Origin: Paraglaciecola sp. | GTDB taxonomy: Bacteria > Pseudomonadota > Gammaproteobacteria > Enterobacterales > Alteromonadaceae | DNA: 64,000 bases | Assembly: GCF_030730205.1 (NCBI RefSeq) | Contig: NZ_JANQVQ010000316.1 | Coordinates: forward strand, 1-64,000 | Reading direction: 5' to 3' | In this document: positions 3,027 to 56,757 of the stretch, piece by piece | How the letters are laid out: each line of letters begins with the position of its first letter | How positions within the stretch are numbered: the stretch's first letter is position 1 | Position numbers and translations under genes: made by a program | The notes under the pieces: model-generated | The model's input: only the letters and a program-made list of their open reading frames with translations | Database searches by the model: none | Told to the model about the DNA's origin: nothing

Positions 3027-3040
3027 AGTAATATTAAGAC

Positions 3041-3078
3041 AAGCTGCTGACGGTAAATGAATGTCAGCAGCTTTTTTA
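3041..3078 (+). terminator. Intrinsic terminator after amylosucrase
   Basis: AAGCTGCTGAC (3041-3051) pairs with GTCAGCAGCTT (3063-3073) around an 11-nt loop, giving an 11-bp stem followed by a run of T. It lies 14 nt after the amylosucrase stop. The T run reaches the stop codon of the convergent repressor gene at 3076-3078. The minus strand has no comparable U tract, so it works best for the amylosucrase transcript. Confidence 0.85.
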
Positions 3079-4113
3079 TTTACAAGTTTGACGGACGACC
3101 AAACGAGTTTCAAGAATGACTTTTTCCTTTGAATTTCCCTCAAGTAACATAGTGGCAGCTAATCTACCTTTTTCCAAATTTTGCTGACAGACAGTAGATA
3201 ACGGTGGCGTGCTGCGGGATGCCTCGGGTATGTCATCAAAGCCTGTTACTTGTACTTGCCCTGGCACGGCGATATTCAATTCATTCGCCACCCTTAAGGC
3301 TGCTAAAGCAATTACGTCGCTCATACACAGTAACACAGTGGGTAACGGTGAAGAGGTCAACGCCTCTCTGGCAGCTACTTCTGCTTTTTCAGGAGAATTG
3401 ATTGGTATATGCCATATTTTATCGACCGGTATACTGACTTTATTCGCTTCGGCGGCTCGCATATAACCCGCTAACCTTAATCGAGAAATCTCTTGGCTGG
3501 GCATGCTTAGATCCTCTTGACTTAGGCGACAGATTCGAGAGGAGTCAATCAGACGAAGGCCCAAAACCGCCACTTGGCTGTTGTCTTCTTTTTGCAGCGC
3601 ATGTTCAGCAATGTTATAGGCGCCCTGCTCGTTATCTATATTTACTGAGCCACTATCGGCAAATTCAAAATCTACCACAACCACTGGTTTACCGGTGCGT
3701 TTGATATGTTCAAATCCGTTGCCTTGCAAAGCGCCATAAAGAATAAAACCGTCGGGTAAGGACTCTGCACTACTTTGCTCTGCAGATGTCATACCGCTAG
3801 ACAACAGCAATAATTGCTTTTTGTTTTCAACTAAAACTTCTGCGATTCCTTGCATCAGTTGATTTGCCACAGGATCAGAGAAGCTATAGCTGATTGAGTC
3901 GGCCAACATAACACCAATAACGCCCGACTCTCCCCGTCGTAACGAGCGCGCAGCCAAATTAGGACCGTAGTAACCTAGTTCAGCGGACTCTCGTAAAATT
4001 CGCTCTCTTAACTTTTCTGACAACTGATCTGGTCTGTTATATGCGTTAGAAACCGTCGCTGTCGAAACACCTAACTGCGCTGCAACTTGTTTCAAATTGA
4101 GTTTCTTTTTAAT
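3076..4113 (-). CDS. LacI-family transcriptional repressor of the sucrose locus
   Basis: The N-terminus KQVAAQLGVSTATVSNAYNR is a textbook LacI helix-turn-helix with hinge, followed by a periplasmic-binding-protein-like effector domain (SGVIGVMLADS, then TGFDDIPEAS near the C-terminus). The best start is uncertain and unusual. A TTG at 4093-4095 would cut into the first helix and has no ribosome site. An in-frame ATT at 4111-4113 gives the natural N-terminus MKKKLNLKQVAAQL and sits 7 nt after AGGA (4121-4124). No in-frame ATG, GTG or TTG precedes it before the upstream stop. The gene is convergent with amylosucrase and divergent from the receptor gene. It probably binds the three CTTAANCGATTAAG palindromes and senses sucrose or a product; the effector is not visible in the sequence. 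Confidence 0.92.
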   Translation of the reverse strand: MKKKLNLKQVAAQLGVSTATVSNAYNRPDQLSEKLRERILRESAELGYYGPNLAARSLRRGESGVIGVMLADSISYSFSDPVANQLMQGIAEVLVENKKQLLLLSSGMTSAEQSSAESLPDGFILYGALQGNGFEHIKRTGKPVVVVDFEFADSGSVNIDNEQGAYNIAEHALQKEDNSQVAVLGLRLIDSSRICRLSQEDLSMPSQEISRLRLAGYMRAAEANKVSIPVDKIWHIPINSPEKAEVAAREALTSSPLPTVLLCMSDVIALAALRVANELNIAVPGQVQVTGFDDIPEASRSTPPLSTVCQQNLEKGRLAATMLLEGNSKEKVILETRLVVRQTCK

Positions 4114-4350
4114 AACTATTTCCTGACTTTTTTACTTTGTGCATCTTGCAATACTACCGGAATCTACTAGTGAAACCTAACAGTGATTTGTTCTAATTAT
4201 CGCGGCATGTCAACCTAATCAGCGCTAATTTACGCGATGAAATTTTGTAATAATCCCTCAGTGCTTTTTCTAATCAATGTTAACTAAACAACACTCTCAA
4301 GGCTTTGCGTCAGCAACATCTAAACAACAAATTACAAAACACCTAAATTG

Positions 4351-4364
4351 CTTAACCGATTAAT
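4351..4364. promoter_or_regulatory. LacI-family operator variant (CTTAACCGATTAAT)
   Basis: Twelve of 14 bases match the perfect palindrome at 944-957, and the central CG is kept. It lies about 240 bp after the repressor start and 285 bp before the receptor start, so it may serve repressor autoregulation or DNA looping. Confidence 0.55.
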
Positions 4365-4559
4365 AAAGATTAAAACAACAACTGACAGACACTAATTTAA
4401 CAATAAAAGTTCAAAAAATCGTAAAAAAAATAAGCTATATTTATCATGCACATAGAGTTTTATTGGTGTGAATAAGCAGGCTTTTTTAAAATTCATTGTT
4501 ATTTTATTGTTATAATTTATTTACAAGTCAGATTTTAAGCACTATCATTTGCGCAACAT

Positions 4560-4573
4560 CTTAAACGATTAAG
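4560..4573. promoter_or_regulatory. LacI-family operator (CTTAAACGATTAAG)
   Basis: Thirteen of 14 bases match the perfect palindrome at 944-957. It lies 75 bp before the receptor start codon at 4649, a usual place for a repressor site overlapping a promoter or its downstream edge. Confidence 0.7.
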
Positions 4574-4648
4574 CCGGTTTCTAGCTGTTTTGAATAGCGC
4601 TTAATTACTTTGGTTACACAAACACACTAAAACTAAATGAGGTTCACA

Positions 4649-7168
4649 ATGACTAATTCCGTTTTTAACAAGAACAAAATTAGTGCCGCGATCGCTATTG
4701 CAACTTTAAGTCTAAGCGTCCAAGCATTCGCACAGGAAACCCAAGCACCGGAGGCGCAAAAGGCCAAAGAGACTTATGAACAAATCGTAGTCACCGCTTC
4801 TCCTGCTGGCGCCACCATGCAAGAGGCGAGCGTTTCAGTTAGTGCCTTAGGCGAAGATGACATACTTAAACTTGCTCCGCGTTCTACCGCAGAAGTTTTT
4901 CGTGCTATCCCTGGTATACGCGCTGAATCGTCTGGCGGTGGTGGTAACGCGAACATTACTATTCGTGGTATTCCTCTAGCTACTGGTGGTTCTAAATTCC
5001 TGCAAATACATGAAGATGGCCTGCCAGTATTAGAATACGGTGATATCAACTTCGGTAATGCCGATAACTTTCTACGTTACGATTGGTCTGTAGCTACAGT
5101 AGAATCTGTTCGTGGTGGTTCTGCCTCGACGTTTGCAAGTAACTCTCCAGGTGGTGTAATCAACCTTATCAGTAACACCGGTGAATCAGGTGGTGGTGCT
5201 ATCGGAACATCTTTTGGTGTTGACTATGATGAGTTTCGCTTAGATTTTCGCTACGGCGGAGAGCTTGCTGATGACTTGTTTTACCATGTCGCTGGTTTTG
5301 CCCGCAACGGTGAAGGCCCTCGTGAGACGGGTTACAATGGTGACCAAGGTGGTCAAATCAAACTAAACATCACCAAGGTACTTGATAAAGGCCATCTTCG
5401 TTTTTACTTCAAAAACTTAGATGACAAAGTCTCAACTTACTTGCCGTCTCCTGTGCGTTTCAACGGCAATGGCGAATTTGGTCCAGTAGACAACTACGAT
5501 GCTAGCTCACAAGCGCTTAACTCAGCTTACAACACTAATATTTCCACTTTTGATAGCTACGGTAACGCGCAAAACCGTGATCTTCGTGATGGCATTGAAT
5601 CAAAAGTAACGTCTTTCGGAATGGAAGTTGACTTAGAAGTAGCGGACAACGTGTTCTTTTTAAATAAATTCCGTATGTCTGATATCTCTGGTGGCTTTAT
5701 TGCACCGTTCACAGACGGATTTCCTGTAGGCCCTCAAAGTGCTGATGGTTTTGCTGCCGCTTTATGTTCAGGCGCAACAGCTGGTGACGGCAGTGCACTA
5801 AACTGTGATTCAACGTCTGTTACGTTAGCAAATGGACCAAACGCCGGTGATGCATATAATGGCTTAGCATTTACTAACTTGTTGTTTGATACTCGCATTA
5901 ACGACTTAGGCAACATGATCAACGACATGAGCCTACGTAAAGAATTTGATAATGGCGTGTCTGTAACGGCGGGTTATTACTACTCAAATCAAAACATCGC
6001 TACAAGCTGGGCTAGCTGGCAGACTTTTATCCAAACCTTGGATGGCAGTAACTCTCAGATGCTTAACATCACCGATGGCGATGGCACACAACTCGTTGCT
6101 GATGGCTTATTATCAGCCAGCTTCTTGTCTTGGGATTGGGATTTAAACTACGTTACTAAAGCACCTTACATGAACATCGGCTTCGAATTGTCAGACAATA
6201 TCTTAGTAGATGCCTCTGTTCGTTACGACGAAGTGACTGCTTCTGGCGAACTTATTAGCTCATGTTGTGGTGGCAATACTGACTTTGACTTAAACGGCAA
6301 CGGTACCATCGAGCAAATCGAAGACGCTTCAGCAGTTAACAGTGGATTTATTGCTGGTGGTGTTATCAACTTAAATCGTGCTGGCGCAAGCTCACAAATT
6401 GTTGACTACACAGCAAGCAATGTTTCTTACTCGTTAGGTGGTTCTTACTTACTTGACGATACAAAAACAATTTTCGCCCGTTACAGTAAAGGTAGCCGAG
6501 CAATTGCCGACCGCTTATTACAAATTGCTGGTACATTAAATTCTGATGGCAGCTTGACTAGCACAACCTCAGGTTTTGATGAAACGACGCAATTAGAAAT
6601 AGGCTTTAAATACGGAACGCGTGACTTAATGTTAAACGCGACGTTATTTGACACTGTAACTGAAGATACGCAAGCAGAGCTTACTAGTGGCCTAACCTTC
6701 ATTCGTGAATATAAAGCGACAGGTCTTGAGTTCGAAGGCAGATGGAATGCAACAGATGACATCCGGGTTACTGGTAACTTGACTTGGACTGACGCTGAAA
6801 TCAGTAAAGATGCTTTCAACCCTGCCCTAGAAGGCAAAACACCACGTCGTCAAGCTGATTGGATCTACACCATCACCCCTGAATACGTGCAAGATGACTG
6901 GTCAGTTGGTGCTTCTATCCAAGGTTCTACTGAATTTTATGTTCAAGATTCAAATGAACTTAAACAGGATGGTTACAACTTAGTTAACCTGTTTGCGACC
7001 TATTGGATCAGTGACCGTTTCTCAGTTGCACTTAACGTAAACAACGCAACCGATGAATTTGTCATTACTGAATCTGAAGAAGCAACGGCAAACGCAGGCG
7101 ACATCATTCGTGCTCGCCCACTTAACGGACGTACTACCGTACTTTCAGTTAAATATATGTTTGATTAA
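4649..7168 (+). CDS. TonB-dependent outer-membrane receptor, probable sucrose uptake
   Basis: About 839 aa. The ATG at 4649 is preferred: GAGG at 4639-4642 stands 6 nt before it, while the ATG 12 nt upstream overlaps that ribosome site. A signal peptide ends near SVQAFAQ. A TonB-box-like EQIVVTAS follows, then a plug domain (NITIRGIPLA, DGLPVLEYGD, PGGVINLIS) and a 22-strand type barrel with alternating patterns up to the end TVLSVKYMFD. It would bring a sugar through the outer membrane using TonB-ExbBD energy. Its place beside amylosucrase and a LacI repressor, with shared operators, points to sucrose or a related oligosaccharide, as with SuxA in Xanthomonas. The substrate is inferred from context only. 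Confidence 0.92.
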   Translation: MTNSVFNKNKISAAIAIATLSLSVQAFAQETQAPEAQKAKETYEQIVVTASPAGATMQEASVSVSALGEDDILKLAPRSTAEVFRAIPGIRAESSGGGGNANITIRGIPLATGGSKFLQIHEDGLPVLEYGDINFGNADNFLRYDWSVATVESVRGGSASTFASNSPGGVINLISNTGESGGGAIGTSFGVDYDEFRLDFRYGGELADDLFYHVAGFARNGEGPRETGYNGDQGGQIKLNITKVLDKGHLRFYFKNLDDKVSTYLPSPVRFNGNGEFGPVDNYDASSQALNSAYNTNISTFDSYGNAQNRDLRDGIESKVTSFGMEVDLEVADNVFFLNKFRMSDISGGFIAPFTDGFPVGPQSADGFAAALCSGATAGDGSALNCDSTSVTLANGPNAGDAYNGLAFTNLLFDTRINDLGNMINDMSLRKEFDNGVSVTAGYYYSNQNIATSWASWQTFIQTLDGSNSQMLNITDGDGTQLVADGLLSASFLSWDWDLNYVTKAPYMNIGFELSDNILVDASVRYDEVTASGELISSCCGGNTDFDLNGNGTIEQIEDASAVNSGFIAGGVINLNRAGASSQIVDYTASNVSYSLGGSYLLDDTKTIFARYSKGSRAIADRLLQIAGTLNSDGSLTSTTSGFDETTQLEIGFKYGTRDLMLNATLFDTVTEDTQAELTSGLTFIREYKATGLEFEGRWNATDDIRVTGNLTWTDAEISKDAFNPALEGKTPRRQADWIYTITPEYVQDDWSVGASIQGSTEFYVQDSNELKQDGYNLVNLFATYWISDRFSVALNVNNATDEFVITESEEATANAGDIIRARPLNGRTTVLSVKYMFD

Positions 7169-7189
7169 TCTCGCTTAACAACGACATGT

Positions 7190-7217
7190 AAACGCCCGCT
7201 CACTGCGGGCGTTTTTG
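7190..7217 (+). terminator. Intrinsic terminator after receptor gene
   Basis: AAACGCCCGC (7190-7199) pairs with GCGGGCGTTT (7205-7214) around a TCACT loop, followed by T residues. The 10-bp GC-rich stem lies 22 nt after the receptor stop and closes the sugar locus. Confidence 0.9.
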
Positions 7218-7320
7218 TTTGTTGTGTTGTTCAAATTATAAACATCTATAAATGAAATAATCTTGTTACTAGGCCTAAATTATCCCATGCTAAAACGCAG
7301 TATAATAATAGGAGCATAGA

Positions 7321-7980
7321 ATGTTAACCCTGCATGGCTTTGATGTAAGTAACTACTTCAACATGATTAAATTAGCTTTGGCTTATAAAGATGTTGAATA
7401 CACGAAAAACACTGTCTATCCAAATCAATCGAGCGACTTTCTGAGGCTGAGTCCTATGGGCAAGGTACCTGCTTTAGAAACACATCAAGGCACCTTATGT
7501 GAAACGAATGTTATTCTCGAATATTTAGAAGAAACTTTTCCCCTTCCAGCACTTTACCCTGCTGAACCTTTTGCGAAATCAAAAGTAAAAGAGCTAGTTA
7601 AAATGTGCGAACTGTATCTCGAATTACCTGCTCGGCGTTGCCACCCAGAAGTGTTTTTTGGGCAGGTGGTGAGTGACGCCACTAAAAAAGAAGTAAAACG
7701 CGCACTATATAAAGGCATGGAAGGCTTAGCCAGAACAGCAAAATTTAGCCCTTATATTGCCGGAAGTGAGTTTAGCGCTGCTGATATCATGTTTTTATAC
7801 AGTGCAGACCTTGCTTCGGTGGTAGCTAAAAAGTGTTTTGATTTTGACTTGTTAGCGCTTGCGCCAGGCGCCCACGAATTGATGGCTTTGTTGACCGAAA
7901 ATCCACATGTCCAAAAAATTGCCGAAGAGCGCAAAGCAGGCAATATTGCCTTTAAAGAATATATTGCGAGCCTGAGTTAA
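7321..7980 (+). CDS. Glutathione S-transferase family protein
   Basis: 219 aa, the usual GST length. The N-terminal thioredoxin-like domain shows LHGFDVSNYFNMIKLAL, the cis-proline loop SPMGKVPAL and the glutathione-binding ETNVILEYLEE (about residues 60-71). The all-helical C-terminal domain holds FSAADIMFL, the usual N-capping box of GST helix 6. GGAG at 7311-7314 lies 6 nt before the ATG. Its own promoter is likely, because a terminator precedes it. It probably conjugates or reduces small molecules with glutathione in the cytoplasm; the class and substrate cannot be read from sequence. No link to the sugar locus is evident. Confidence 0.9.
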   Translation: MLTLHGFDVSNYFNMIKLALAYKDVEYTKNTVYPNQSSDFLRLSPMGKVPALETHQGTLCETNVILEYLEETFPLPALYPAEPFAKSKVKELVKMCELYLELPARRCHPEVFFGQVVSDATKKEVKRALYKGMEGLARTAKFSPYIAGSEFSAADIMFLYSADLASVVAKKCFDFDLLALAPGAHELMALLTENPHVQKIAEERKAGNIAFKEYIASLS

Positions 7981-8080
7981 TTACACAGAAATAAATTAAA
8001 TTTATCCGTATTTTTGGTCTATGTTTGAGTTTGTGCCGTAATAATATCGGCAAAGACGTCTCAAATTTAAAGGATATAAA

Positions 8081-8275
8081 ATGAGTTTGACCACTAATGC
8101 AGAGTTTAGCTGTCCCTATTGTATGGAAATCAATGATATAGAGGTTGATCCCGATAACGATCTCAACCAACAACAAATTGTAGATTGTCAAATTTGTTGT
8201 AGTCCCATCGAAATAACCGTGACCCTTGGGAGACATGATCAGTTTAATATTCTTGCTATGACTGACAGCGAGTAG
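8081..8275 (+). CDS. CPXCG-motif cysteine-rich small protein
   Basis: 64 aa with two cysteine clusters: CPYC at residues 11-14 and CQICC at 36-40, typical of the small CPXCG-motif family and consistent with a zinc-ribbon or rubredoxin-like metal knuckle. The G usually following the first cluster is M here. AAAGGA stands 7 nt before the ATG. It is acidic and has no signal peptide. Function is unknown in the family. An antisense reading frame covers the whole gene but shows no family features. Confidence 0.85.
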   Translation: MSLTTNAEFSCPYCMEINDIEVDPDNDLNQQQIVDCQICCSPIEITVTLGRHDQFNILAMTDSE

Positions 8276-8349
8276 CATGATAGTGCCACCCAGTGTTACT
8301 TTGATGCTCAATTCGCTTGCGTACCAATAAACAAGGCTATTTCTTTACT

Positions 8350-8706
8350 ATGATCGCAATGTATTACGCCCCGCCTGAACTTCAAACCCGGTTAACTCAA
8401 GTGAACGGCGAGCGTGAATTACTCAAACTCGTCACTAAAGAAATAGCCCTGTATGACTTTGCCACTAAAATAGACAGTTTTGAGTTGGACCTCGCTTTTG
8501 CTGCCGCAGGCGGCATATCTCCTTGGGTTATGGCTGACAACTTGCCTGAAGTGCTCAACCAACCTTTGCTTCGAACTGCAACTTTTGGTGATTTATTAGT
8601 TGAAACCGTACAGGGCTACGTCAACCTTGCAACGCCAGCAGGTTTTATTCCTGTAATTGATGTGGAATACAATCTTGGACTTTTACGGCAAAAACAATTC
8701 AATTAG
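8350..8706 (+). CDS. Hypothetical protein
   Basis: I do not recognise this family. From the ATG at 8350 it is 118 aa, mostly helical and soluble in character, starting MIAMYYAPPELQTRL. An in-frame TTG at 8317 would add 11 residues; neither start has a good ribosome site, and ATG 8359 is a third option. Residues about 50-60 (FAAAGGISPWVM) and the segment TPAGFIPVIDVEYNLG look like ordered structure. Codon use resembles its neighbours. It lies between the CPXCG gene and the MscS gene, all on the plus strand, but the spacing of about 60 to 75 bp does not force an operon. Confidence 0.6.
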   Translation: MIAMYYAPPELQTRLTQVNGERELLKLVTKEIALYDFATKIDSFELDLAFAAAGGISPWVMADNLPEVLNQPLLRTATFGDLLVETVQGYVNLATPAGFIPVIDVEYNLGLLRQKQFN

Positions 8707-8763
8707 TTGCTAGCCTGCGTTATGTATTAAACTAGCCTCAAGTAAATTTATCTGTAGTCCTTA

Positions 8764-9456
8764 ATGCAATTTGAAACCATATTAGTCGACTTCCTTAACT
8801 GGGTCGCATCTTACAGAACCAATCTGTTGGCAACATGCTTAGCGCTGGTTGGTTATGTCTTGGTCACTCGTATCACCCTGCCTCGCTTGACTAAATCAAC
8901 CGATGACAGCGGCTTTAAAAGTGAGCAAGTAGCAAAAGCCTATCACATGGTCAGACTAGTATGTGCCACTGTGACTATCGCGGTCGTTTTACTCATTTGG
9001 GGAATTGATTTTAGTGGCCTTTTAATATTTTCTACTTCGATCATAACCCTGTTAGGGGTCGCCCTCTTTGCTAGTTGGTCTATCTTAAGTAACGTAACAT
9101 CCTTTTTTATCCTGTTGTTTCATACCTCCTTTCGCCGTGGCAATTATATTCGTGTGATTGATGCAGATAACTATATAGAAGGCTATATTGCAGAGTTGGG
9201 TTTACTCAATACCAAACTCACCACCAGCACTAATGAGCATGTGGTCTATCCTAATAATTTATTATTAGCCCGTCCGGTTTTTGTTAACCCAGACAGAAAA
9301 CTTAATGCCTTAGGTAAAATTACCGATAGTTTAGTTATTCCTAAGGCAAGTGAACATCAACCCGCGGATGAAGGCCTGGCGACGAATAAACATGATATGT
9401 TGGAAATTGAACAAACAAACCACCGCAGCAGCCCAACGCAAAAACCGAGAGAATAA
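8764..9456 (+). CDS. Small MscS-type mechanosensitive channel
   Basis: 230 aa. Three hydrophobic segments occupy about residues 18-35, 58-78 and 82-115, and the last is the pore helix plus the start of the MscS beta domain (SWSILSNVTSFFILLFHTSF). A soluble part follows (GNYIRVIDADNYIEGYI, then HVVYPNNLLLARPV), matching the MscS middle domain. The usual C-terminal alpha/beta domain is largely missing, replaced by a polar tail after about residue 190. It is likely an inner-membrane osmotic safety channel or an MscS-like protein with a special role. The 3' end overlaps the next gene by up to 107 nt, in another frame. Confidence 0.82.
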   Translation: MQFETILVDFLNWVASYRTNLLATCLALVGYVLVTRITLPRLTKSTDDSGFKSEQVAKAYHMVRLVCATVTIAVVLLIWGIDFSGLLIFSTSIITLLGVALFASWSILSNVTSFFILLFHTSFRRGNYIRVIDADNYIEGYIAELGLLNTKLTTSTNEHVVYPNNLLLARPVFVNPDRKLNALGKITDSLVIPKASEHQPADEGLATNKHDMLEIEQTNHRSSPTQKPRE

Positions 9457-10450
9457 TGCGTTTACGCGCTTTTTTTTGACGCCTACTACAAGCTCATTTT
9501 GCTGTGTTCGGTGGATTGCAAAAATAAGCGCCATCCTATTCTTTACTGTCCATTATCAGGTGTTTGCTGAGCAAGTAAGTTTTAAAAAAGCCAAAGAAAA
9601 TCAAAAAACAATGTTTAGTTATCAATGGATTGATAGCTTTTCTCAAACACAAAACCTCACCTTTGATTTAGCGAACAAACAAAACGCCAAACAAGTTCAT
9701 AAACGATACGTGCCCGAATTAGCGCAACAATACGTCTTTATAGAGCTACATAAAGCTGCACGGTTAATCGACCCACGCGAGGCTCGCATTGAAATTCAAC
9801 GAAGCACTCAAGATATTAACGTTAAAGTCAGCAGTCGCTCACCTAAGCTTTTAACAAAATGGCAAGGATCCATGGCGAAAAGCCAGGAGAGAGCGTTTGA
9901 CAAGTATTTACATGACCATTACTACACCCGTTTTTACTCCCATCTTGGTCAAGAAGCGGTGAAAGCCGATCACTTACGATACATAAACGAAAATAAAGCC
10001 CCTTTATTACCGATTGCACAAGCGATATATGAAAAACTCCCGCCTAATAGTGAAAGTAGAATATATGTAAACTTACTTTTAAGCTGGGTTCAAAGCATTC
10101 CCTATAACGAATTAGAAGACAGAATGAGCTCAAATGGTGCAGGTTTTTTGCCGCCGCTTGCTCTTATTAGAGAAAATATTGGCGACTGCGATAGTAAGTC
10201 CGTTCTCACAGCAGGCTTGATTCGTTCTCTATTGCCAGAAATAAAATTAGTTATGGTGTATTTGCCACAACACGCTTTATTAGGTATCAGCCTTCCTCAC
10301 AGAAGCAACGAACAAACCTTCAATTTTGGTGGCTCTGACTACTTACTTATGGAGCCAACGGGTCCCGCTCTCATGCCCCTAGGCACTGTCGCTGCATCGA
10401 GTGAACGAGCGATCAATAGTAGGTTATTTAGTTACGAGCAAGTACCCTAA
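9350..10450 (+). CDS. Exported transglutaminase-like (papain-fold) protein
   Basis: Up to 366 aa from the GTG at 9350. The start is unsure: the first 35 codons overlap the MscS tail, and a hydrophobic stretch (WIAKISAILFFTVHYQVFAE) near residues 60-80 looks like the signal peptide, so translation may begin nearer 9470, where a TTG is available. The C-terminal part shows a transglutaminase-like triad: Cys280 in NIGDCDSKS, His308 in PQHALLG and Glu335 in MEPTGPA (GTG numbering). Such domains act as peptidases, transamidases or inactive binders in the periplasm. Overlap with the channel gene suggests co-expression and perhaps a shared envelope task. The substrate is unknown. Confidence 0.75.
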   Translation: MNINPRMKAWRRINMICWKLNKQTTAAAQRKNRENNAFTRFFLTPTTSSFCCVRWIAKISAILFFTVHYQVFAEQVSFKKAKENQKTMFSYQWIDSFSQTQNLTFDLANKQNAKQVHKRYVPELAQQYVFIELHKAARLIDPREARIEIQRSTQDINVKVSSRSPKLLTKWQGSMAKSQERAFDKYLHDHYYTRFYSHLGQEAVKADHLRYINENKAPLLPIAQAIYEKLPPNSESRIYVNLLLSWVQSIPYNELEDRMSSNGAGFLPPLALIRENIGDCDSKSVLTAGLIRSLLPEIKLVMVYLPQHALLGISLPHRSNEQTFNFGGSDYLLMEPTGPALMPLGTVAASSERAINSRLFSYEQVP

Positions 10451-10581
10451 CCTGCATTTAGCTTGTATTTTATCCCTGTCCCTTGCGCAAAATAACCAAG
10501 AACATAGCCATATAGTATGAATTTAAATACCTACGTACCGAGCTCTATACTGACGTTATTTCTTACAATTCGCTAATTTAA

Positions 10582-10595
10582 CTTAATCGACTAAG
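10582..10595. promoter_or_regulatory. Operator-like palindrome (CTTAATCGACTAAG)
   Basis: Thirteen of 14 bases match the perfect operator of the sucrose locus at 944-957. It stands 58 bp before the ATG of the PstS-like gene, a proper place for a repressor site. It may be chance, a site for a paralogous LacI-type regulator, or a true member of the same regulon. The remainder of 10451-10652 shows nothing else I can support. Confidence 0.4.
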
Positions 10596-10652
10596 ATTTA
10601 AAAACAACTCCTTAGCATGGATGCGAATTCACAAATCTTATAAGGTCGTGAC

Positions 10653-11084
10653 ATGTTAAAAAAACAAGCTTTAATTAAGGCTATACTCAGTTCAAGTGTT
10701 TTTCTGTCTGTTAGTTTTTCCGCTCTTTCTGAAACCGTTATTATCGTCAATCCCAATAATGACTCTGTAATAGACGCAAAAGTTGCACAACGCATTTTTT
10801 TGGGTAAAGAAGGTAAATTTTCAAATGGCAAAGAAGCCATTCCCGTCAACCAAATCGCAGATTCCCCTAGTCGTACAGATTTTGATACAACAGTATTAGG
10901 ACGAAGCTCTGCTCAAGTTTCAGCCTATTGGTCCAAGTTGGTATTTACTGGCAAAGGGATCCCTCCGAAAGAAGTGCAAAATGATGCAGAGGTCATCGCG
11001 TTGGTAGCTGACAACCAAGATGCCATTGGCTATGTGGACAGCGCTGCTGTAACCGGCAATGTTAAAGCAATTCCACTTAACTAA
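10653..11084 (+). CDS. PstS-like periplasmic substrate-binding protein (short)
   Basis: 143 aa, starting with a signal peptide (MLKKQALIKAILSSSVFLSV, cleavage near FSALSE). The mature part has the arrangement seen in short phosphate-binding-like proteins: VIIVNPNNDSVIDAKVAQRIFLGK, then FWSK-type YWSKLVFTGKGIPP, and DAIGYVDSAAV near the end. It is about half a normal PstS and has no permease neighbours, so it may be a single-domain binder or sensor and not a transporter component. AAGG lies 7 nt before the ATG. Only 17 nt separate it from the porin gene, so the two are almost surely one transcript. Confidence 0.85.
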   Translation: MLKKQALIKAILSSSVFLSVSFSALSETVIIVNPNNDSVIDAKVAQRIFLGKEGKFSNGKEAIPVNQIADSPSRTDFDTTVLGRSSAQVSAYWSKLVFTGKGIPPKEVQNDAEVIALVADNQDAIGYVDSAAVTGNVKAIPLN

Positions 11085-48354: not shown

Positions 48355-49545
48355 ATGCGTTTGTATTGCCTCCCCTTACTCATCATATCAATGGTCACGG
48401 TGTTGTCGTCAACTCATACCTTTGCCGCTTCCAAGCAAACCATATCGATTGTTATCGGACATGAAAACACCGCCCTACTCGACATATTGAACACCTTTAC
48501 CCAACAAACAGGATACGAGATCAACACCCGTATTTTTGACAACGCGGACCTAAAGGCACAGTTATTAAAGCATGCAAATACAGATTTACCTGATGTAGCC
48601 TTGATTCCAGGTGATTTTCTTGGTCTTCCTTATTTGCAACTAAGTGAAATTAAACCGAGTGTATTAAACAAAAATATTGGCGAGCGATTCAAAAAAAGCG
48701 CTATGGTAGATGGAAAGTATCTTGGTATCCCCATTATCGCAGGCAATCACCTCGTACTGTATTATAACAAAAGTATGGTCACATCCCCGGCCACTCATTG
48801 GCCCGAATTACGTTCGCAGCAGCAAGCCATAAAGCAAGGTAATAGCATTATAGCGTGGAGCTTTAACGAAATGTATTGGTTGATCCCCACTATTACTGCC
48901 ATGCAAACACTGCCCTTAATTGGGGAACAGATTCAGCTCAACACCCCCGAAATGCAGAGGGCTATTCAATTTTATTGGAACTTGGCTGTTACAGGTGTCG
49001 TTGATGAACAATGTGACTATCAATGTGGTATCGACAAATTTGAGCGAGAGCAAAATGCCTATTTAATTTCCGGATTTTGGTCCTTTCGACAACTTAGCAC
49101 GCGTCTTGGCAGTAAGTTGGGGATTGCACCGTTGCCAGCCATTAACGGCCAGCCTATGCGATCTTACTTCACCTCACATGTATTGGCTTTTCTAAACCAT
49201 TCGTTAACAGGTAATAAGCGCGAAGCCCTATTGGCATTAGCAAATTTTATGCAAACAGAGCAAGTGCAACAAGCGTTGTGGCATCAGCTCAATGCTCTAC
49301 CGGTCAATTCCTTGGTATTGAACAAGATTGAAATGCAAGCCAGTAGCAATGTTCAAATTGTTATTGATTTGCTTAACCAATCAGAGCCAATGCCCAATAA
49401 TTTTAAGATGGCCGTAGTATGGGAAGCGATATCCATCGGATTTAAACGGTATGCTGCGGGTGTTGTTGATGCCAAACAAGCAACAGAGCTTATGCAGCAT
49501 CTAGCCGAAGAGTCGACTCAAACGACGGCGAGTGATGCACGATGA
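48355..49545 (+). CDS. Extracellular solute-binding protein (family 1-like), sensor partner
   Basis: 396 aa. A signal peptide ends near SSTHTFAASKQ. The mature part has the order of sugar-type binding proteins: ISIVIGHENTALLDILNTFT at the start, DLPDVALIPGDFLGLPY, ADGKY-like MVDGKYLGIPIIAGNHLVLY, then NSLVLNKIE late. No lipobox. No ABC permease or ATPase is near; instead its last 4 nt overlap a membrane histidine kinase. It is likely the periplasmic ligand-binder of that kinase, as with other solute-binding proteins that feed sensor kinases. The ligand may be a sugar, polyol or organic acid; unknown. Confidence 0.88.
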   Translation: MRLYCLPLLIISMVTVLSSTHTFAASKQTISIVIGHENTALLDILNTFTQQTGYEINTRIFDNADLKAQLLKHANTDLPDVALIPGDFLGLPYLQLSEIKPSVLNKNIGERFKKSAMVDGKYLGIPIIAGNHLVLYYNKSMVTSPATHWPELRSQQQAIKQGNSIIAWSFNEMYWLIPTITAMQTLPLIGEQIQLNTPEMQRAIQFYWNLAVTGVVDEQCDYQCGIDKFEREQNAYLISGFWSFRQLSTRLGSKLGIAPLPAINGQPMRSYFTSHVLAFLNHSLTGNKREALLALANFMQTEQVQQALWHQLNALPVNSLVLNKIEMQASSNVQIVIDLLNQSEPMPNNFKMAVVWEAISIGFKRYAAGVVDAKQATELMQHLAEESTQTTASDAR

Positions 49546-51770
49546 AACAGATTCCCTTCATCCAATTGTTATTTAGGCAAGTTGGCTTGTTTATTCTGAT
49601 CCCTATTATTTTGGTGATCTCTTACTCTTTAATAATGGCTTACCGAGCTGAAACCACCTTGATGAAAAATGCGATTCAGTCAAGGGGGTATGCCGTCGCT
49701 TCAGATATCAACGGAAAGTTAACCCGCTATCAATACGCAACTATCGAGCTAAGCCAGAATAAAGGGCTCGCTGAAGTAGCAAAAAATATTTTGTATTCGC
49801 AGTTTGTTGATAAAAGCTTACAACAATTTGTACAGCACTATGATGGTATAGAAAGTGCCTTCATTATGGATGAAAAAGGCTTTGTTGTATCAGGTTATCC
49901 CCTAGTAACACTGCGCGCTAAATCCCCCGAACTTCAGCAAATTGTGCAACGGAAATTGGCGAATACACACCATGCCTCTAACCTTCCTGAACTGCATTAT
50001 TTTGATGTTGCAATGCTCAATCTGCAACAGACTTCCACCAGCCTTGATACTGGGCATCTTGTATTTATCACCCGTTTACAAAGAGAGACCGAATCCATTA
50101 TTAACCCGATGGAAACCAACTCAATGCTATTTGTGGTGCTATCACAAGAACAGTTGTTACAGGTATCTTCGACAAAAAGTACGGATTTATCATCACAAGA
50201 ATACAACGTACTGAGTAGTCGAGAACAGACTCTCTCAACCATTGATGTTGAAACAAAAACCTATGCCAACAATCCGTTTTTACTCGAGCTACCTATTTGG
50301 ATAAACGATCGGCCAATGCCACTTAGTGTCATTAATTATCACCAAACGTCCAATTACTTCTTAGCCGTTTATCAGAATATCGCCGTCACATTGTTAGCGC
50401 TATTGATTATCTTTGTTGTGACTTATTATTTTTTACGGGTTTGGATGCAAAAACTTAATACGCCTATTCGAGAAATGGTGCAACTTAGCCATCAAATCGC
50501 AAAAGGGAATTACAAGCTTCCTGCCGAACAGAATCCTTTTATAGAGTTTCACCAGATTCACGACGCATTAAAAAAAATGGCGCTGCAGATCAGTAATCAA
50601 ATATTTGATTTGCAAGAAGCGCGGCTCAAAGCCGAAAGTTCAGACAAATTAAAATCGCAGTTTTTGGCCAACATGAGTCACGAAATACGCACACCTATGA
50701 ACGGGGTCCTTGGCGTTTTGCAATTATTAGAGCAGCAAATAACTGATCCTCGACAAGCTAAAATGCTGGATACGGCAATTACGTCAGGTGGCAATTTAAT
50801 GCGTATCCTCAACGATATTCTTGATTTATCAAAAATTGAAGCCGAGCAACTGGAAATCGAACACGTAGCATTCAATCCAAAACTATTAATAGAAGATGTG
50901 TGTGATTTAAGCCGCGCAAACTGTCAAGAAAAAGGCCTCGTGTTTAATGTGCGTATTGACGAACAACTTAATATGCTGTGGTCGAGCGACAGCCTTAGAA
51001 TAAGCCAAATCTTGTATAATTTGCTCTCTAACGCCGTTAAATTTACTGCCAAAGGATGCATTTCATTTGAGGCACACTATTGTCTTAAAGAAGGCCGTCA
51101 TCTTCTGCAATGCAGTATCAGCGATCAAGGTATTGGCATTAGCCCATCGCAACTTAAATTGTTGTTTACCCCGTTTAAACAGGCTGATGCTTCAACCACC
51201 AGAGAGTTTGGCGGAACAGGCTTAGGGCTCGTTATTTGTAAAAAACTTGTGGAGCTTATGCACGGCGAATTTTCGGTGGTCAGTGAGCCTGGTGTTGGTT
51301 CATGTTTTACCTTTAATGTTGAGCTTCAACAGGTGGTCGTCACACACCCTGAACCAAGCGTTCAAATAAAAGATGAAAGGCCTCCTAACTTGCAAGACAA
51401 ACGCATTTTGATCGCTGAAGACAATATGATTAACCAAGAAATAATCAAACTAATGCTAGAAGACACCCAAGCAAAGATTTGTTTGGTTAATAATGGAGAA
51501 GAAGCCCTAGAAGCTTACCAAACCTTCCTGCCCGACCTCATTTTGATGGATGTACAAATGCCAATAATGGACGGCGTCACGGCAATACAACAACTAAGAG
51601 CACAAGGAATGGACCAGCCCATCGTGATGCTAACCGCAAATGTGAGTCAACGCGATGTGAGTCACTATCTTTCGATAGGCGCCGATCAAGTACTGGGTAA
51701 GCCCACTCAATTAGAAGAACTGTACACGGTACTGAGGCATTTCTTAACGCGCACCGAAATAGTAAAATAA
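49542..51770 (+). CDS. Membrane-bound hybrid histidine kinase (sensor, HAMP-like, HisKA, HATPase, REC)
   Basis: 742 aa. A first membrane helix lies at about residues 10-28, a periplasmic domain of roughly 250 residues follows, and a second helix (LLALLIIFVVTYYFLRVW) is at about 284-304. HAMP-like linker, then HisKA with His380 in FLANMSHEIRTPMNG, ATPase with NLLSNAVKFT, DQGIGI and EFGGTGLGLVI, and a receiver with phospho-Asp670 in LILMDVQMPIMDG. It overlaps the solute-binding gene by 4 nt (ATGA). No HPt module is inside, so an outside phosphotransfer protein and regulator must exist. Function probably depends on the binding protein. Confidence 0.93.
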   Translation: MKQIPFIQLLFRQVGLFILIPIILVISYSLIMAYRAETTLMKNAIQSRGYAVASDINGKLTRYQYATIELSQNKGLAEVAKNILYSQFVDKSLQQFVQHYDGIESAFIMDEKGFVVSGYPLVTLRAKSPELQQIVQRKLANTHHASNLPELHYFDVAMLNLQQTSTSLDTGHLVFITRLQRETESIINPMETNSMLFVVLSQEQLLQVSSTKSTDLSSQEYNVLSSREQTLSTIDVETKTYANNPFLLELPIWINDRPMPLSVINYHQTSNYFLAVYQNIAVTLLALLIIFVVTYYFLRVWMQKLNTPIREMVQLSHQIAKGNYKLPAEQNPFIEFHQIHDALKKMALQISNQIFDLQEARLKAESSDKLKSQFLANMSHEIRTPMNGVLGVLQLLEQQITDPRQAKMLDTAITSGGNLMRILNDILDLSKIEAEQLEIEHVAFNPKLLIEDVCDLSRANCQEKGLVFNVRIDEQLNMLWSSDSLRISQILYNLLSNAVKFTAKGCISFEAHYCLKEGRHLLQCSISDQGIGISPSQLKLLFTPFKQADASTTREFGGTGLGLVICKKLVELMHGEFSVVSEPGVGSCFTFNVELQQVVVTHPEPSVQIKDERPPNLQDKRILIAEDNMINQEIIKLMLEDTQAKICLVNNGEEALEAYQTFLPDLILMDVQMPIMDGVTAIQQLRAQGMDQPIVMLTANVSQRDVSHYLSIGADQVLGKPTQLEELYTVLRHFLTRTEIVK

Positions 51771-53411: not shown

Positions 53412-53633
53412 TTACAACTTCTTCACTGGAGCATAACCTTCTGACTCCAGTTCTTCGTTAACGCAGCTGAGTAGATAAGCAGCTAGTTTATCTGCCGCAA
53501 TACCATCGTCTTCTGCCATTTCTGTACAGAACTGCTTTAACTCTTTCAACAATGCTTCGTCGGCCGCTGGTTTTTCGTCGGCATACAAAGAAAAACTTAA
53601 TAACCCTACAAACAATAATGCAACAGTTTTCAT
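53412..53633 (-). CDS. Small exported protein, 73 aa
   Basis: From the ATG at 53633, which has GGAG 6 nt upstream. A longer frame to 53702 runs into a terminator hairpin and lacks a start signal. The signal peptide (MKTVALLFVGLLSFSLYA) gives a mature protein of about 55 acidic residues, with two cysteines (KQFCTEMAED and LLSCVNEELE) that could form one disulfide. I do not recognise a named family. It lies on the same strand as the LysR gene and after the 55-aa gene. A periplasmic role is likely. Confidence 0.75.
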   Translation of the reverse strand: MKTVALLFVGLLSFSLYADEKPAADEALLKELKQFCTEMAEDDGIAADKLAAYLLSCVNEELESEGYAPVKKL

Positions 53634-53690
53634 GCTTTCTCCGCAATAAAAAAACACCAAATAAGCCAAAAATTTTGGCCATTTACACAA

Positions 53691-53725
53691 AAGGCGCATC
53701 AAACAGTTACCTGTTGATGCGCCTT
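53691..53725 (-). terminator. Strong hairpin terminator after the 55-aa gene
   Basis: The two arms, 53691-53706 and 53711-53725, pair over 15 bp with a single bulged A and a 4-nt loop. On the minus strand it is followed by TTTTGTG, so it ends transcription from the 55-aa gene before the small exported gene. Confidence 0.85.
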
Positions 53726-53788: not shown

Positions 53789-53956
53789 CTACTCGGCTGT
53801 GAGGTGTTTATTTTTTGACTCAATATTCTTTTGTCTTTTTTCCCGCTGTTTTTTCTCAAGCTCTGCTCGAACTTTAGCGGATTTTTTATCTTTTGCTGAA
53901 GCATCAAAATCATCTTCATCAAATTCGTCTAAACTAACGCGATTATCTTTGCCCAT
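53789..53956 (-). CDS. PA3496-like small basic/acidic protein, 55 aa
   Basis: An ATG at 53956 opens MGKDNRVSLDEFDEDDFDAS and the frame ends with TAG at 53789-53791. The protein has an acidic first half and a lysine/glutamate-rich helical second half (VRAELEKKQREKRQKN). The DDFD stretch and layout resemble the PA3496 family of small gammaproteobacterial proteins, named for envelope integrity. No clear ribosome site is visible, but a terminator follows it closely. Function unknown here. Confidence 0.6.
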   Translation of the reverse strand: MGKDNRVSLDEFDEDDFDASAKDKKSAKVRAELEKKQREKRQKNIESKNKHLTAE

Positions 53957-54152
53957 AACATTTATCAAAGGTTGCTAACACCACTTGATTCTAAAACACT
54001 GTGCGTAAAAGCAAAGTGAAATAAATTGAACGTCATGATGAAAAAATTTTGTTCAACTACCTGCATATTGCTACGCTTAATAAGAGTAGTATTCGCGCAA
54101 ATTTCTGTTGTTCTATTTGCAGCCTCTAATCTGCTTCTAAAAAAGGTAAAAC

Positions 54153-55610
54153 ATGTTTAAAACCTTAGTTGTTGTCGACCATCCACTCAACTTACCTGAT
54201 AGCGAATTAACCATTGTTAATTTTGAGCAATATCTGGCTGAATATCCAAAAGCCGGCGAGCCTAAAATTCGTATTATTAACTTGTGCGATACGGAAAAAT
54301 ACTTAAGCCAAGGCTATTACTGCTCCTTACTGGCCGAAGCTCGCCAACATAAAGTATTACCCAGCGTAAATACCATTAATGACTTGTCGTTAATGCCGCC
54401 TAAAGATCAAGAATGGGTCGAAATTCCCTTAAGCAAAAGTCAAATACCTGCGGTGATCAGTGCTGACGAAAAAGAATTCTTGGTATTTTTTGGCTGGACA
54501 AAAAACGAATCGCTACGCAAGTTAGCTAAATTCGCTTTTGAAAAGTTTCCGGCGCCTATTTTAAAGCTGTCTGTTGCTCGCGATGCGCATCAAACTCAAC
54601 TTATTTGTAGTGCGATTGGCGTGAATGAAATTGCCCCTGAACTTTGGGACCAATTTACTGCCAGCTTAGAACATTTCACTTTAAAAGTGTGGCGTAACCC
54701 TCCAGGTCGGAAGCGCGCTCGCTGGGATATGGGCATATTAGTCAACCCTGATGAAAAAACACCGCCAAGCGATGCCAAGGCAATTCAGTTGTTTATAAAA
54801 GCAGCCAATAAAGTGGGGATTAATGCCGAAGTATTTACTGCCGCACAAAGTGCTCAGTTATACCAATATGACGCGTTATTTATTCGTGAGACAACCTCGA
54901 TCAAGCACCATACCTATGAATTAGCCCGCAAAGGTGAAAAAGAGGGCATGGTGGTGATGGACGATCCTACGTCTATCTTACGTTGCTGCAATAAGGTGTT
55001 TTTGCACGATGCTTTTAGCTACCACAATATTTCTGCACCTAAAACGCACTTTGTGTCTAAATCTGACCCTGCGACCATTGACCGCTTAGAGACGGAGTTT
55101 AGTTACCCTATCGTGCTTAAGTTGCCAGAGAGTTCGTTTTCGCTAGGTGTTTTTAAAGCGAAGGACAGAAGCGAATTAACCAGCAAGTTAGATATGATGC
55201 TTAAGCAATCGGCTTTAGTGCTAATTCAAGAGTACTTGTATACCGAATACGATTGGCGCATTGGTGTACTAAACGGTCGTGCGATCTATGCTTGTCGTTA
55301 TTTTATGGCGCGTAACCACTGGCAAATTTATAACCATGGCTCTAAGCGCAACAATGCCGGTAACTTTGAAACGATCCCAACCTTTGAAGTCCCTCGAGCA
55401 GTATTAGCCACTGCGATTAAGTCTTGTGAGATTGTTGGCAATGGCTTGTATGGTGTTGACTTAAAACAAGTTAATGACAAAGTTTACGTTATCGAAGTCA
55501 ATGACAACCCTAACCTAGACAGTAAAATTGAAGACAAGTACTTAGGTGACGAGCTATATCGTGTCATCATGCAAGAGTTTGCAGATCGCCTTGAATACCG
55601 AGGCCGCTAG
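54153..55610 (+). CDS. RimK-like ATP-grasp ligase with RLAN domain
   Basis: 485 aa. The first half (about residues 1-190) matches the RimK-like ATP-grasp N-terminal (RLAN) domain, starting MFKTLVVVDHPLNLPDSELT and including SQGYYCSLLAEARQHKVLPS. The second half is a RimK-type ATP-grasp: PIVLKLPESSFSLGVFKAKD (ATP-binding lysines), LIQEYLYTEYDWRIGVLNG and VYVIEVNDNPNLDSKIEDKY (metal-binding E-x-N). Such enzymes join an amino acid to a carboxyl group of a peptide or small molecule with ATP. The next gene starts 2 bp after this stop. Its substrate is unknown. Confidence 0.9.
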   Translation: MFKTLVVVDHPLNLPDSELTIVNFEQYLAEYPKAGEPKIRIINLCDTEKYLSQGYYCSLLAEARQHKVLPSVNTINDLSLMPPKDQEWVEIPLSKSQIPAVISADEKEFLVFFGWTKNESLRKLAKFAFEKFPAPILKLSVARDAHQTQLICSAIGVNEIAPELWDQFTASLEHFTLKVWRNPPGRKRARWDMGILVNPDEKTPPSDAKAIQLFIKAANKVGINAEVFTAAQSAQLYQYDALFIRETTSIKHHTYELARKGEKEGMVVMDDPTSILRCCNKVFLHDAFSYHNISAPKTHFVSKSDPATIDRLETEFSYPIVLKLPESSFSLGVFKAKDRSELTSKLDMMLKQSALVLIQEYLYTEYDWRIGVLNGRAIYACRYFMARNHWQIYNHGSKRNNAGNFETIPTFEVPRAVLATAIKSCEIVGNGLYGVDLKQVNDKVYVIEVNDNPNLDSKIEDKYLGDELYRVIMQEFADRLEYRGR

Positions 55611-55611
55611 A

Positions 55612-56757
55612 TTGCAAGCACTCAACCAACATTTGGCTGAGGTGGTAACACCTACCCAAACGATAGAAGTCCGAGATGCAAAATACTCGGACTTGGCTCA
55701 ATTAATGGCATTGGAAAATCGTTGTTTTGCCGGCGACCGTCTTAGTAAACGCAGTTTTCAACATTGGCTGAAGGCACCTAACTGTGTGTTTCAAGTGATC
55801 TTGATTAAGCAAGTTGTGGTGGCATATGGCCTGATCATTATGCGTAAAGGAACGCATTTGGCGCGTCTGTATTCCATTGCGGTTGATAGCGAGATTCGAG
55901 GACTAGGCATCGGTAAAAGGCTGTTGCTTACCCTGGAACAACAAACCTTAGAAGCCGGTAAATTGTTTATTCGTTTAGAAGTGGCAAAAAATAACGAAAC
56001 CGCGATTAATTTGTACAAGGGGCTCGGCTACAAAATTTTTGGTAGTTATGAAGCCTATTATGAAGACAATACTGATGCCTTGCGCATGCAAAAAAACGTA
56101 CGCCAGAAGCAATCGTTGCAACAACTAACATCGTATCCTTGGTATCAACAAACCACAGAGTTTACTTGTGGTCCGTCTTCACTAATGATGGCCATGGCTA
56201 AAATTGATGAGAAAGTTAACTTAAATCAAGCGCTTGAACTGGATATTTGGCGAGAAGCTACCACCATTTACATGACCTCAGGCCACGGTGGTTGCCATCC
56301 TTATGGCCTGGCCTTAGCGGCAAACAAAAGAGGCTTTGAAGTACTAGTTTACGTCAATCTCACCGGTCCCTTATTTATTGGGGGAGTACGCAGTCAACAC
56401 AAAAAAGACATCATGCAAGCCGTCGAACACCAGTTCCGTAGTCAAGTAGAAGAGGCCAATATTGAGGTTCGTTTTACAGATGTCAGCCCCGAAGATCTTG
56501 AATTTCATATTCGACAAGGGGCCAGTGTCATTAGTTTAATTAGCACCTATCAATTGGACGACAAAAAAGCGCCACATTGGGTATGTGTCACAGAAATTGA
56601 TGAAGACTATTTGTATGTTCATGATCCTGACCCTGATGATCACGACGTTGAGTCTTTAGATTGTCAACATATTCCCATTGCGAAACAAGATTTCTATAGC
56701 ATGTCTTGTTTTGGAAAAGAGCGTTTACGTACCGCGGTGATTATTCACAAACGTTAA
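55612..56757 (+). CDS. GNAT acetyltransferase fused to C39-like cysteine peptidase
   Basis: About 381 aa from the TTG at 55612, which has GAGG 8 nt upstream; a longer frame beginning inside the ligase gene is less likely. Residues about 15-155 are a GNAT N-acyltransferase domain (VDSEIRGLGIGKRLLLTLEQ is the acyl-CoA loop). Residues about 165-381 are a C39-like papain-fold domain with Cys186 in EFTCGPSSLMMA, His322 in APHWVCVTEI and Asp338 in VHDPDPDD, so a full catalytic triad. Together with the ATP-grasp ligase 2 bp before, this looks like a peptide or amino-acid modification system. Substrate unknown. Confidence 0.9.
   Translation: MQALNQHLAEVVTPTQTIEVRDAKYSDLAQLMALENRCFAGDRLSKRSFQHWLKAPNCVFQVILIKQVVVAYGLIIMRKGTHLARLYSIAVDSEIRGLGIGKRLLLTLEQQTLEAGKLFIRLEVAKNNETAINLYKGLGYKIFGSYEAYYEDNTDALRMQKNVRQKQSLQQLTSYPWYQQTTEFTCGPSSLMMAMAKIDEKVNLNQALELDIWREATTIYMTSGHGGCHPYGLALAANKRGFEVLVYVNLTGPLFIGGVRSQHKKDIMQAVEHQFRSQVEEANIEVRFTDVSPEDLEFHIRQGASVISLISTYQLDDKKAPHWVCVTEIDEDYLYVHDPDPDDHDVESLDCQHIPIAKQDFYSMSCFGKERLRTAVIIHKR

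Follow-up and report, generated by a model that had tools for sequence, protein, structure and literature searches.

The window analysed here is a stretch of 64,000 nucleotides from a Paraglaciecola sp. genome (assembly GCF_030730205.1, contig NZ_JANQVQ010000316.1, positions 1 to 64,000) and it contains two adjacent genes, one encoding an RLAN-type ATP-grasp ligase and the other a fusion of a GNAT acetyltransferase with a C39-like (DUF3335) domain of the papain superfamily. The best explanation of this pair, put forward tentatively, is that the ligase and the acetyltransferase form a two-enzyme core making an N-acylated small peptide, and that the fused peptidase serves the turnover of this product in the window's lineage. 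The RLAN ligase would use ATP to turn a carboxylate into an acyl phosphate, which it would then couple to an amine, as its fold of the LysX/ArgX/RimK type and the conserved residues of its site suggest. The GNAT would acetylate the free alpha-amino group of an amino acid or peptide, either before or after ligation, a step to which its fold, its constant partnership with the ligase and the occurrence of both in a single chain point. Where it is present, the C39-like domain may hydrolyse (or transfer) the same peptide in the cytoplasm, which would be consistent with its intact catalytic set and with the related DUF3335 proteins found beside oligopeptide transporters. A shared substrate for ligase and GNAT is the simplest assumption, since the two stay side by side in four different arrangements and are joined in a single protein in one case. 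A wider proposal, somewhat less assured, is that the RLAN-bearing species, about 18% of the sampled Pseudomonadota (72 of 398), make an undescribed N-acetylated non-ribosomal peptide through an Ngg-independent ligase-acetyltransferase pair, with the RLAN domain acting as a second substrate site and the fused C39 domain as a dedicated recycling peptidase.

A constant ligase-acetyltransferase core with an optional peptidase

The survey comprised 398 evenly drawn Pseudomonadota genomes, the window's own included, and DUF3335 was found in 58 of them. When the window's genome is set aside, DUF3335 occurs in 57 of the remaining 397 genomes, RLAN in 71 and both in 56 (Fisher p 6e-53, shared descent not corrected for), and a single genome, G066, has DUF3335 without RLAN. 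The two genes lie within 5 kb of each other in 54 of the 56 genomes that have both, and apart in G065 and G247. In 28 of the 54 linked pairs DUF3335 precedes the ligase on the same strand; in 5 it follows, which is the order found in the window; 18 pairs are divergent and 3 convergent. The pair is conserved across many families. The initial annotation had proposed a check for conservation of the pair and of extra neighbours; the linkage of the pair holds, and no conserved third gene emerged, the largest single-linkage cluster besides the core covering 10 of 43 loci.

In addition to the window's ligase, the survey holds 74 ligase places, 43 of which were fetched and mapped with profiles for the three domains. 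A GNAT of the same family lies within 2 kb at 42 of these 43 ligases, fused to a C39 domain at 23 and alone at 19. Against the family profile these partners reach 138-211 bits, compared with 37 and 40 bits for two GNATs in the loci that are unrelated. The 19 places with a lone GNAT consist of 15 RLAN genomes without DUF3335, 3 second RLAN copies, and locus L110, where the ligase has a stand-alone GNAT and the GNAT-C39 gene lies far off in the genome; a stand-alone GNAT is thus found at all 18 places of the first two kinds. Among 51 mapped ligases, which comprise those of the survey, the window, its close relatives, plasmid records and genome G059, 28 have the C39 domain, 20 a GNAT only and 3 (L108, L112 and L113) no near GNAT, so that the C39 domain is absent at 20 of the 48 ligases with an adjacent GNAT. 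Loci L104 (GNAT alone) and L074 (GNAT-C39) belong to one genus and have nine flanking gene clusters in common, and in L089 the GNAT, RLAN and RimK parts are joined in a single chain of 659 amino acids (aa). Given a GNAT at 42 of 43 ligases, 19 of them without C39, and the single chain of L089, the core consists of ligase and GNAT and the peptidase domain is optional. The dedicated pathway originally envisaged, in which a peptide or amino acid is ligated, acylated and trimmed, is thus not a fixed set of three activities: with the peptidase absent beside 20 of these 48 ligases, it can apply to some members of the family only.

For the C39 label, the ligase tree requires 9 changes (well-supported branches force at least 7 of them), against 3 for gene arrangement; the GNAT tree requires 4 for the same label, with at least 2 forced (both trees are quick ones with long rows). 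Nine changes against four suggest that two GNAT types replaced each other beside the ligase, and the difference in C39 content is probably in part such a swapping rather than repeated domain loss.

These are ordinary and widespread families, both already catalogued, and the combination of an ATP-grasp enzyme with a GNAT is a known kind. What is new is the evidence for a GNAT that accompanies the ligase constantly and a peptidase that is optional, along with accessory peptidase genes in some lineages. A constant GNAT directs the search toward a small acetylated peptide, or toward a protein that is both extended by a residue and acetylated, and the lineages with and without the C39 domain offer ready-made comparisons. 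The product question is now easier to test.

The gene pair and its three domains

The features of the pair, all on the plus strand, are the following.

54153 to 55610, plus strand: RLAN / RimK-type ATP-grasp ligase gene, 485 aa (Pfam matches; model pLDDT 86.4)
54222 to 54632, plus strand: RLAN domain (aa 24-160), from Pfam, N-terminal to a complete RimK-like enzyme
54723 to 55595, plus strand: complete RimK/LysX-type ligase module (aa 191-481), from the fold match to LysX 3vpd_A and conserved K281, K323, D436, E448 and N450
55612 to 56757, plus strand: GNAT + C39-like (DUF3335) fusion gene, 381 aa from a likely TTG start (model of the 388-aa version, pLDDT 91.7)
55654 to 56094, plus strand: GNAT domain, modelled as N-alpha-acetyltransferase (RimI/Ard1) type, from profile bounds and fold matches
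56125 to 56754, plus strand: DUF3335 / C39-like domain of the papain superfamily, from Pfam, profile mapping and family comparison
56167 to 56169, plus strand: codon of catalytic Cys186, Cys in 35 of 35 aligned domains
56575 to 56577, plus strand: codon of catalytic His322, His in 35 of 35 aligned domains
56623 to 56625, plus strand: codon of Asp338, Asp in 30 and Glu in 5 of 35 aligned domains

The three enzyme families recognized in the initial annotation are confirmed by Pfam, all scores being above their cut-offs and too large for chance. Its gap of 2 bp between the genes needs correction to 1 bp (the ligase stop ends at 55610 and the fusion gene starts at 55612), while the tight pairing itself is borne out. 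The reading frame of the fusion gene is open from 55546, and its start is likely the TTG at 55612, since this codon is GTG in both close relatives, an upstream GAGG is present in all three, and the alternative TTG at 55591 is TCG in one relative. The fusion protein is 90% identical to that of Paraglaciecola hydrolytica and 82% to that of a Paraglaciecola metagenome-assembled genome, and a single-protein search of genome contigs with it returned 3 loci only. Compared with the two relatives, the nonsynonymous difference is 0.045-0.119 per site and synonymous sites are saturated (pS 0.76-0.85), which indicates that all three domains are under constraint. A promoter and terminator scan gave 3 promoter-like sites, against 7.7 in shuffles, and 3 terminator-like sites, against 3.6; the window has no Rfam match.

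The ligase matches Pfam RLAN (PF14401) with 121.3 bits (cut-off 25) and RimK with 49.8 bits (cut-off 21). Its model aligns best with LysX 3vpd_A (Z 27.9, root-mean-square deviation (rmsd) 2.3, 266 residues aligned), covering the whole of LysX from about residue 191, then with ArgX (Z 27.1, rmsd 2.6, 267 aligned) and RimK 7qys_D (Z 27.0, rmsd 2.9, 271 aligned); D-Ala ligases rank next, at Z 24.7 or less. Because the whole of these enzymes is aligned from about residue 191, RLAN appears as an addition to a complete enzyme, and the protein models as a LysX/ArgX/RimK-type ligase with an extra N-terminal domain. Among 51 aligned ligases, K281, K323, D436 and E448 are kept in all and N450 in 50. The RLAN part carries a signature, N43 and G54-Y55-Y56-x-S58-L59-x-A61-x-x-R64, that is invariant across 44 aligned rows. 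A search of PDB sequences with an RLAN profile of 16 rows gave no match at E up to 1, and the fold list of the ligase model was filled by ligases.

The GNAT part of the fusion protein scores 59.4 bits against Acetyltransf_1 (cut-off 20.7). Its closest folds are Ard1 4pv6_E (Z 22.8, rmsd 1.9, 151 aligned) and RimI 2cnm_A (Z 22.7, rmsd 2.0, 147 aligned), and the twelve entries of highest Z are Ard1, RimI, archaeal Nat, NatA and NatC proteins together with one Coxiella acetyltransferase without a named substrate; the domain accordingly models as an N-alpha-acetyltransferase of the Ard1/RimI type. In 52 aligned GNATs, E42, L129 and E130 are invariant and D34, R92, Y94, S95, N135 and Y157 are kept in 51, the numbering of the GNAT and C39 alignments starting at 55591 and being 7 above that from 55612.

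The C-terminal part matches the whole DUF3335 profile (PF11814, 'Peptidase_C39 like') with 293.3 bits (cut-off 25). The triad Cys186-His322-Asp338 proposed for it is correctly placed when numbered from 55612 and is conserved among the 35 aligned domains as listed above, all of which also keep a Gln six residues ahead of the Cys, and the papain-like Gln-Cys-His-Asp set is by its residues intact in the window's domain. At E up to 0.1, 31 of 32 family members match Peptidase_C39_2, 25 match Peptidase_C39 and 21 match Guanylate_cyc_2; a solved PCAT peptidase is matched at E 0.0034. The Peptidase C39 family of ABC exporters (PF03412) scores 19.9 bits, below its cut-off of 22, and Pfam finds no transporter domain in the fusion protein. 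In an excerpt of PMC10318531, DUF3335 is grouped close to Guanylate_cyc_2 within the papain-like families and described as often fused to GNAT. The claim of an undescribed system is thus overstated, both domains being in Pfam and the GNAT-DUF3335 fusion in print in that excerpt. No assigned function for DUF3335, and no assigned product for the system, was found in the open-licence PMC papers searched. Outside the Pseudomonadota, Methanosarcina acetivorans was the one genome of 14 controls with DUF3335. A phage origin was also considered and set aside, the C39 domain having no match in phage records (the ligase was not searched there).

Competing explanations and neighbouring genes

Several observations weigh against a core that makes a small peptide. 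RimI and Ard1, the nearest GNAT folds, acetylate N-terminal amino groups of proteins, as the titles of their structure entries also state. The fold lists of the fusion model, which GNAT matches filled, contain no match to the C39 part. The partnership is imperfect: survey ligase L108 has no near GNAT, its GNAT-C39 gene lying on another contig (L107), the plasmid-record ligases L112 (Pseudomonas aeruginosa) and L113 (Legionella adelaidensis) have no such GNAT in the fetched stretch, and 1.5 kb separate the GNAT from the ligase in L116. No further biosynthetic gene is conserved, and the same picture would be expected if the target were a protein encoded elsewhere. The NAGGN synthetase shows no association with RLAN (9 of 71 RLAN genomes against 27 of 326 others), whereas true RimK is present in 52 of 71 RLAN genomes against 95 of 326 others. 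For this last tally the RLAN genomes were counted by hand at E 1e-98 or better, 148 genomes exceed the cut-off with the window's included, and shared descent was not removed. The co-occurrence could point to a protein, poly-glutamate, glutamate-rich or ribosomal substrate.

It is this co-occurrence that keeps alive the doubtful alternative of protein modification, in which the ligase extends a protein terminus and the GNAT, with the peptidase where present, acts on the same or a partner protein, in the manner of RimK on S6, RimI on S18 and RimB trimming S6. The nearest folds on both sides, RimK, LysX and ArgX for the ligase as well as RimI and Ard1 for the GNAT, are those of enzymes that act on proteins. 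A ligase paired with a trimming peptidase is, moreover, established for RimK/RimB in the excerpted text of PMC11957791 and PMC12239564. On the other hand, 19 of the 71 RLAN genomes have no RimK over the cut-off by hand count, no target gene was seen travelling with the pair, and the joining of GNAT and ligase in a single chain fits a shared small substrate better. The window's genome also has its own true RimK (468.6 bits, cut-off 331) and its own RimI (107.4 bits, cut-off 86.4) elsewhere, which makes S6/S18 modification unlikely for this pair; S6 glutamylation had been named in the initial annotation as a known pathway in which the pair might prove to act. Neither this refuting condition nor the other one named there, a catalytic triad that is not conserved, was borne out. 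As a separate observation, within the genera of family f55 that hold RLAN, true RimK occurs in 12 of 13 RLAN genomes and in 2 of at least 21 others, a comparison in which genomes without any match are partly listed and several genomes are incomplete.

An improbable alternative is that the C39-like domain is an acyltransferase or transpeptidase, moving the ligated amino acid to another acceptor, rather than a peptidase. Papain-like BtrH, in butirosin synthesis, and phytochelatin synthase, acting on glutathione, are transferases of that kind. Weak matches of the domain are in favour of this alternative: 3 of 32 members match BtrH_N, 3 of 32 match phytochelatin synthase, and solved BtrH-like proteins are matched at E 0.065. 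The matches to Peptidase_C39_2 and Peptidase_C39 are wider, however, and the absence of the domain at so many GNAT-bearing ligases means that it is not needed for the product there.

More improbable still is a role in turnover only, in which the GNAT-C39 protein scavenges peptides and lies near the ligase through shared regulation, not a shared substrate. DUF3335 genes without RLAN are indeed found in or beside Dpp/Opp-type oligopeptide transporter clusters in L114 and L120, and the two genes are unlinked in 2 of 56 genomes; yet linkage in the other 54, in four different orders, the GNAT-ligase fusion of L089 and the presence of DUF3335 without RLAN in just 1 of 57 genomes all speak against it.

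Further neighbourhoods bear on the small-peptide explanation. In L121 a DUF3335 gene away from RLAN lies beside genes for an amidohydrolase and a Ribonuc_L-PSP (RidA-type) protein; the DUF3335 proteins of L121 and L120 carry an N-terminal part unrecognized by Pfam. Five loci from two families (L086, L087, L109, L122 and L124) have a DUF2817 gene less than 2 kb from the core, and one of three scanned DUF2817 members weakly matches the murein tripeptide amidase MpaA (23.5 bits, cut-off 157). In L109 (genome G065, 1598-10809), the GNAT-C39 gene, unlinked from the RLAN ligase, starts about 4 kb after ngg, following the M42 peptidase gene of ngg, and the next genes, which have the same orientation, encode DUF2817 and DUF155 proteins. 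These transporter, amidohydrolase, DUF2817 and ngg neighbourhoods are clues that DUF3335 proteins handle small peptides.

A pathway for a ribosomally synthesized and post-translationally modified peptide, in which the C39 domain would act as leader peptidase, the ATP-grasp enzyme as a cross-linking or extending ligase and the GNAT as the acetylating enzyme, is barely credible: all three activity types occur in microviridin-type clusters, but the nearest ligase folds are LysX, ArgX and RimK, and the 2450 short open reading frames (25-130 aa) near the 51 ligases include no family that extends beyond 3 loci, as one of carriers or precursors would, a comparison that would miss shorter, very variable or distant precursors.

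In the window itself the neighbours suggest no link to the pair: the upstream genes encode a LysR regulator, a thioredoxin-like protein and a short protein that matches nothing in Pfam, and uracil-DNA glycosylase and threonine-pathway genes lie downstream. Two short open reading frames on the minus strand (53412-53702 and 53789-53968), without a Pfam match, are kept in three Paraglaciecola-type loci. Farther off (48355-51770), the genes for a solute-binding protein and a hybrid histidine kinase share 4 bases and may specify a sensor that has a binding protein to itself. Elsewhere, four loci (L074, L086, L102 and L104) have a sodium/calcium exchanger gene no more than about 1.1 kb from the core, and three (L073, L086 and L109) have a DUF155 gene at up to about 1.4 kb; either may be chance.

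The two plasmid-record ligases have distinctive surroundings. In L113 (1-3232), on 'plasmid 27' of Legionella adelaidensis, the RLAN gene is accompanied by genes for a GCS2-family ligase and an N-formylglutamate amidohydrolase, with no GNAT annotated in the stretch; this arrangement would suit a glutamate-containing small product and was sought in the other fetched loci without being found. In L112, on the P. aeruginosa plasmid pZYPA1927, the block that holds the RLAN ligase gene also contains ggt and pagP, a glutamate/aspartate transporter and a gene resembling those of Orn/Lys/Arg decarboxylases. The PAO1 gene PA1345 is presumably an RLAN ligase gene of the L112 type. A site ahead of PA1345 is listed in a Cpx study (PMC12802237).

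Comparison with known systems

Comparative genomics has already described ATP-grasp ligases that are paired with a GNAT and predicted to ligate peptides, the RLAN case included, and Iyer and others are said to have been the first, in 2009, to describe RLAN-GNAT-papain neighbourhoods. A related combination of ATP-grasp and GNAT, R2K-GNAT, appears in an excerpt of a comparative genomics study (PMC4431377). Anti-phage defence was considered and rejected, neither protein matching a PADLOC model at E up to 0.001. With DUF3335 (PF11814), whose whole profile is matched, no difference was found.

From LysX and ArgX of the LysW carrier pathways, the closest ligase folds, the window's ligase differs in its score against LysX (71.4 bits, cut-off 275.6) and in having no recurrent carrier-sized reading frame nearby. 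RimI and Ard1 are the closest folds of the GNAT (Z 22.7-22.8); it scores 74.2 bits against RimI (TIGR01575, cut-off 86.4), and unlike RimI it has a ligase partner and a C39-like domain.

RimK/RimB modification of S6 resembles the pair in the fold of the ligase module and in the association of a ligase with a peptidase. The window's ligase, however, scores 38.8 bits against RimK (NF007764, cut-off 331) and has the added RLAN domain, and RimB is a retropepsin, whereas the peptidase here is papain-type and fused to a GNAT. The logic of a peptidase opposing a ligase is characterized for RimK/RimB, including RimB-RimK hybrids, in an excerpt of PMC11957791, and has genetic support in RloA/RloC in an excerpt of PMC12239564.

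The osmolyte system of NAGGN, with Ngg (TIGR03103), AsnO and an M42 peptidase (TIGR03106), likewise unites a GNAT with an ATP-grasp enzyme and has a peptidase that goes with the synthetase, and the order of GNAT and ligase in Ngg is that of the single chain of L089. According to part of the text of PMC8070244, Ngg acetylates one glutamine and joins a second to it, and the operon includes a peptidase gene. The differences are nevertheless clear: the window's GNAT scores 23 bits against TIGR03103 (cut-off 569) and its ligase is not listed; the window's genome has no synthetase at E 1e-100; no AsnO-type (Asn_synthase) match occurs in the ten neighbours scanned, five upstream and five more; and the ligase is of the RLAN plus RimK/LysX type, with co-occurrence no greater than expected. 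By analogy, the pair would work like the NAGGN system without being a member of it.

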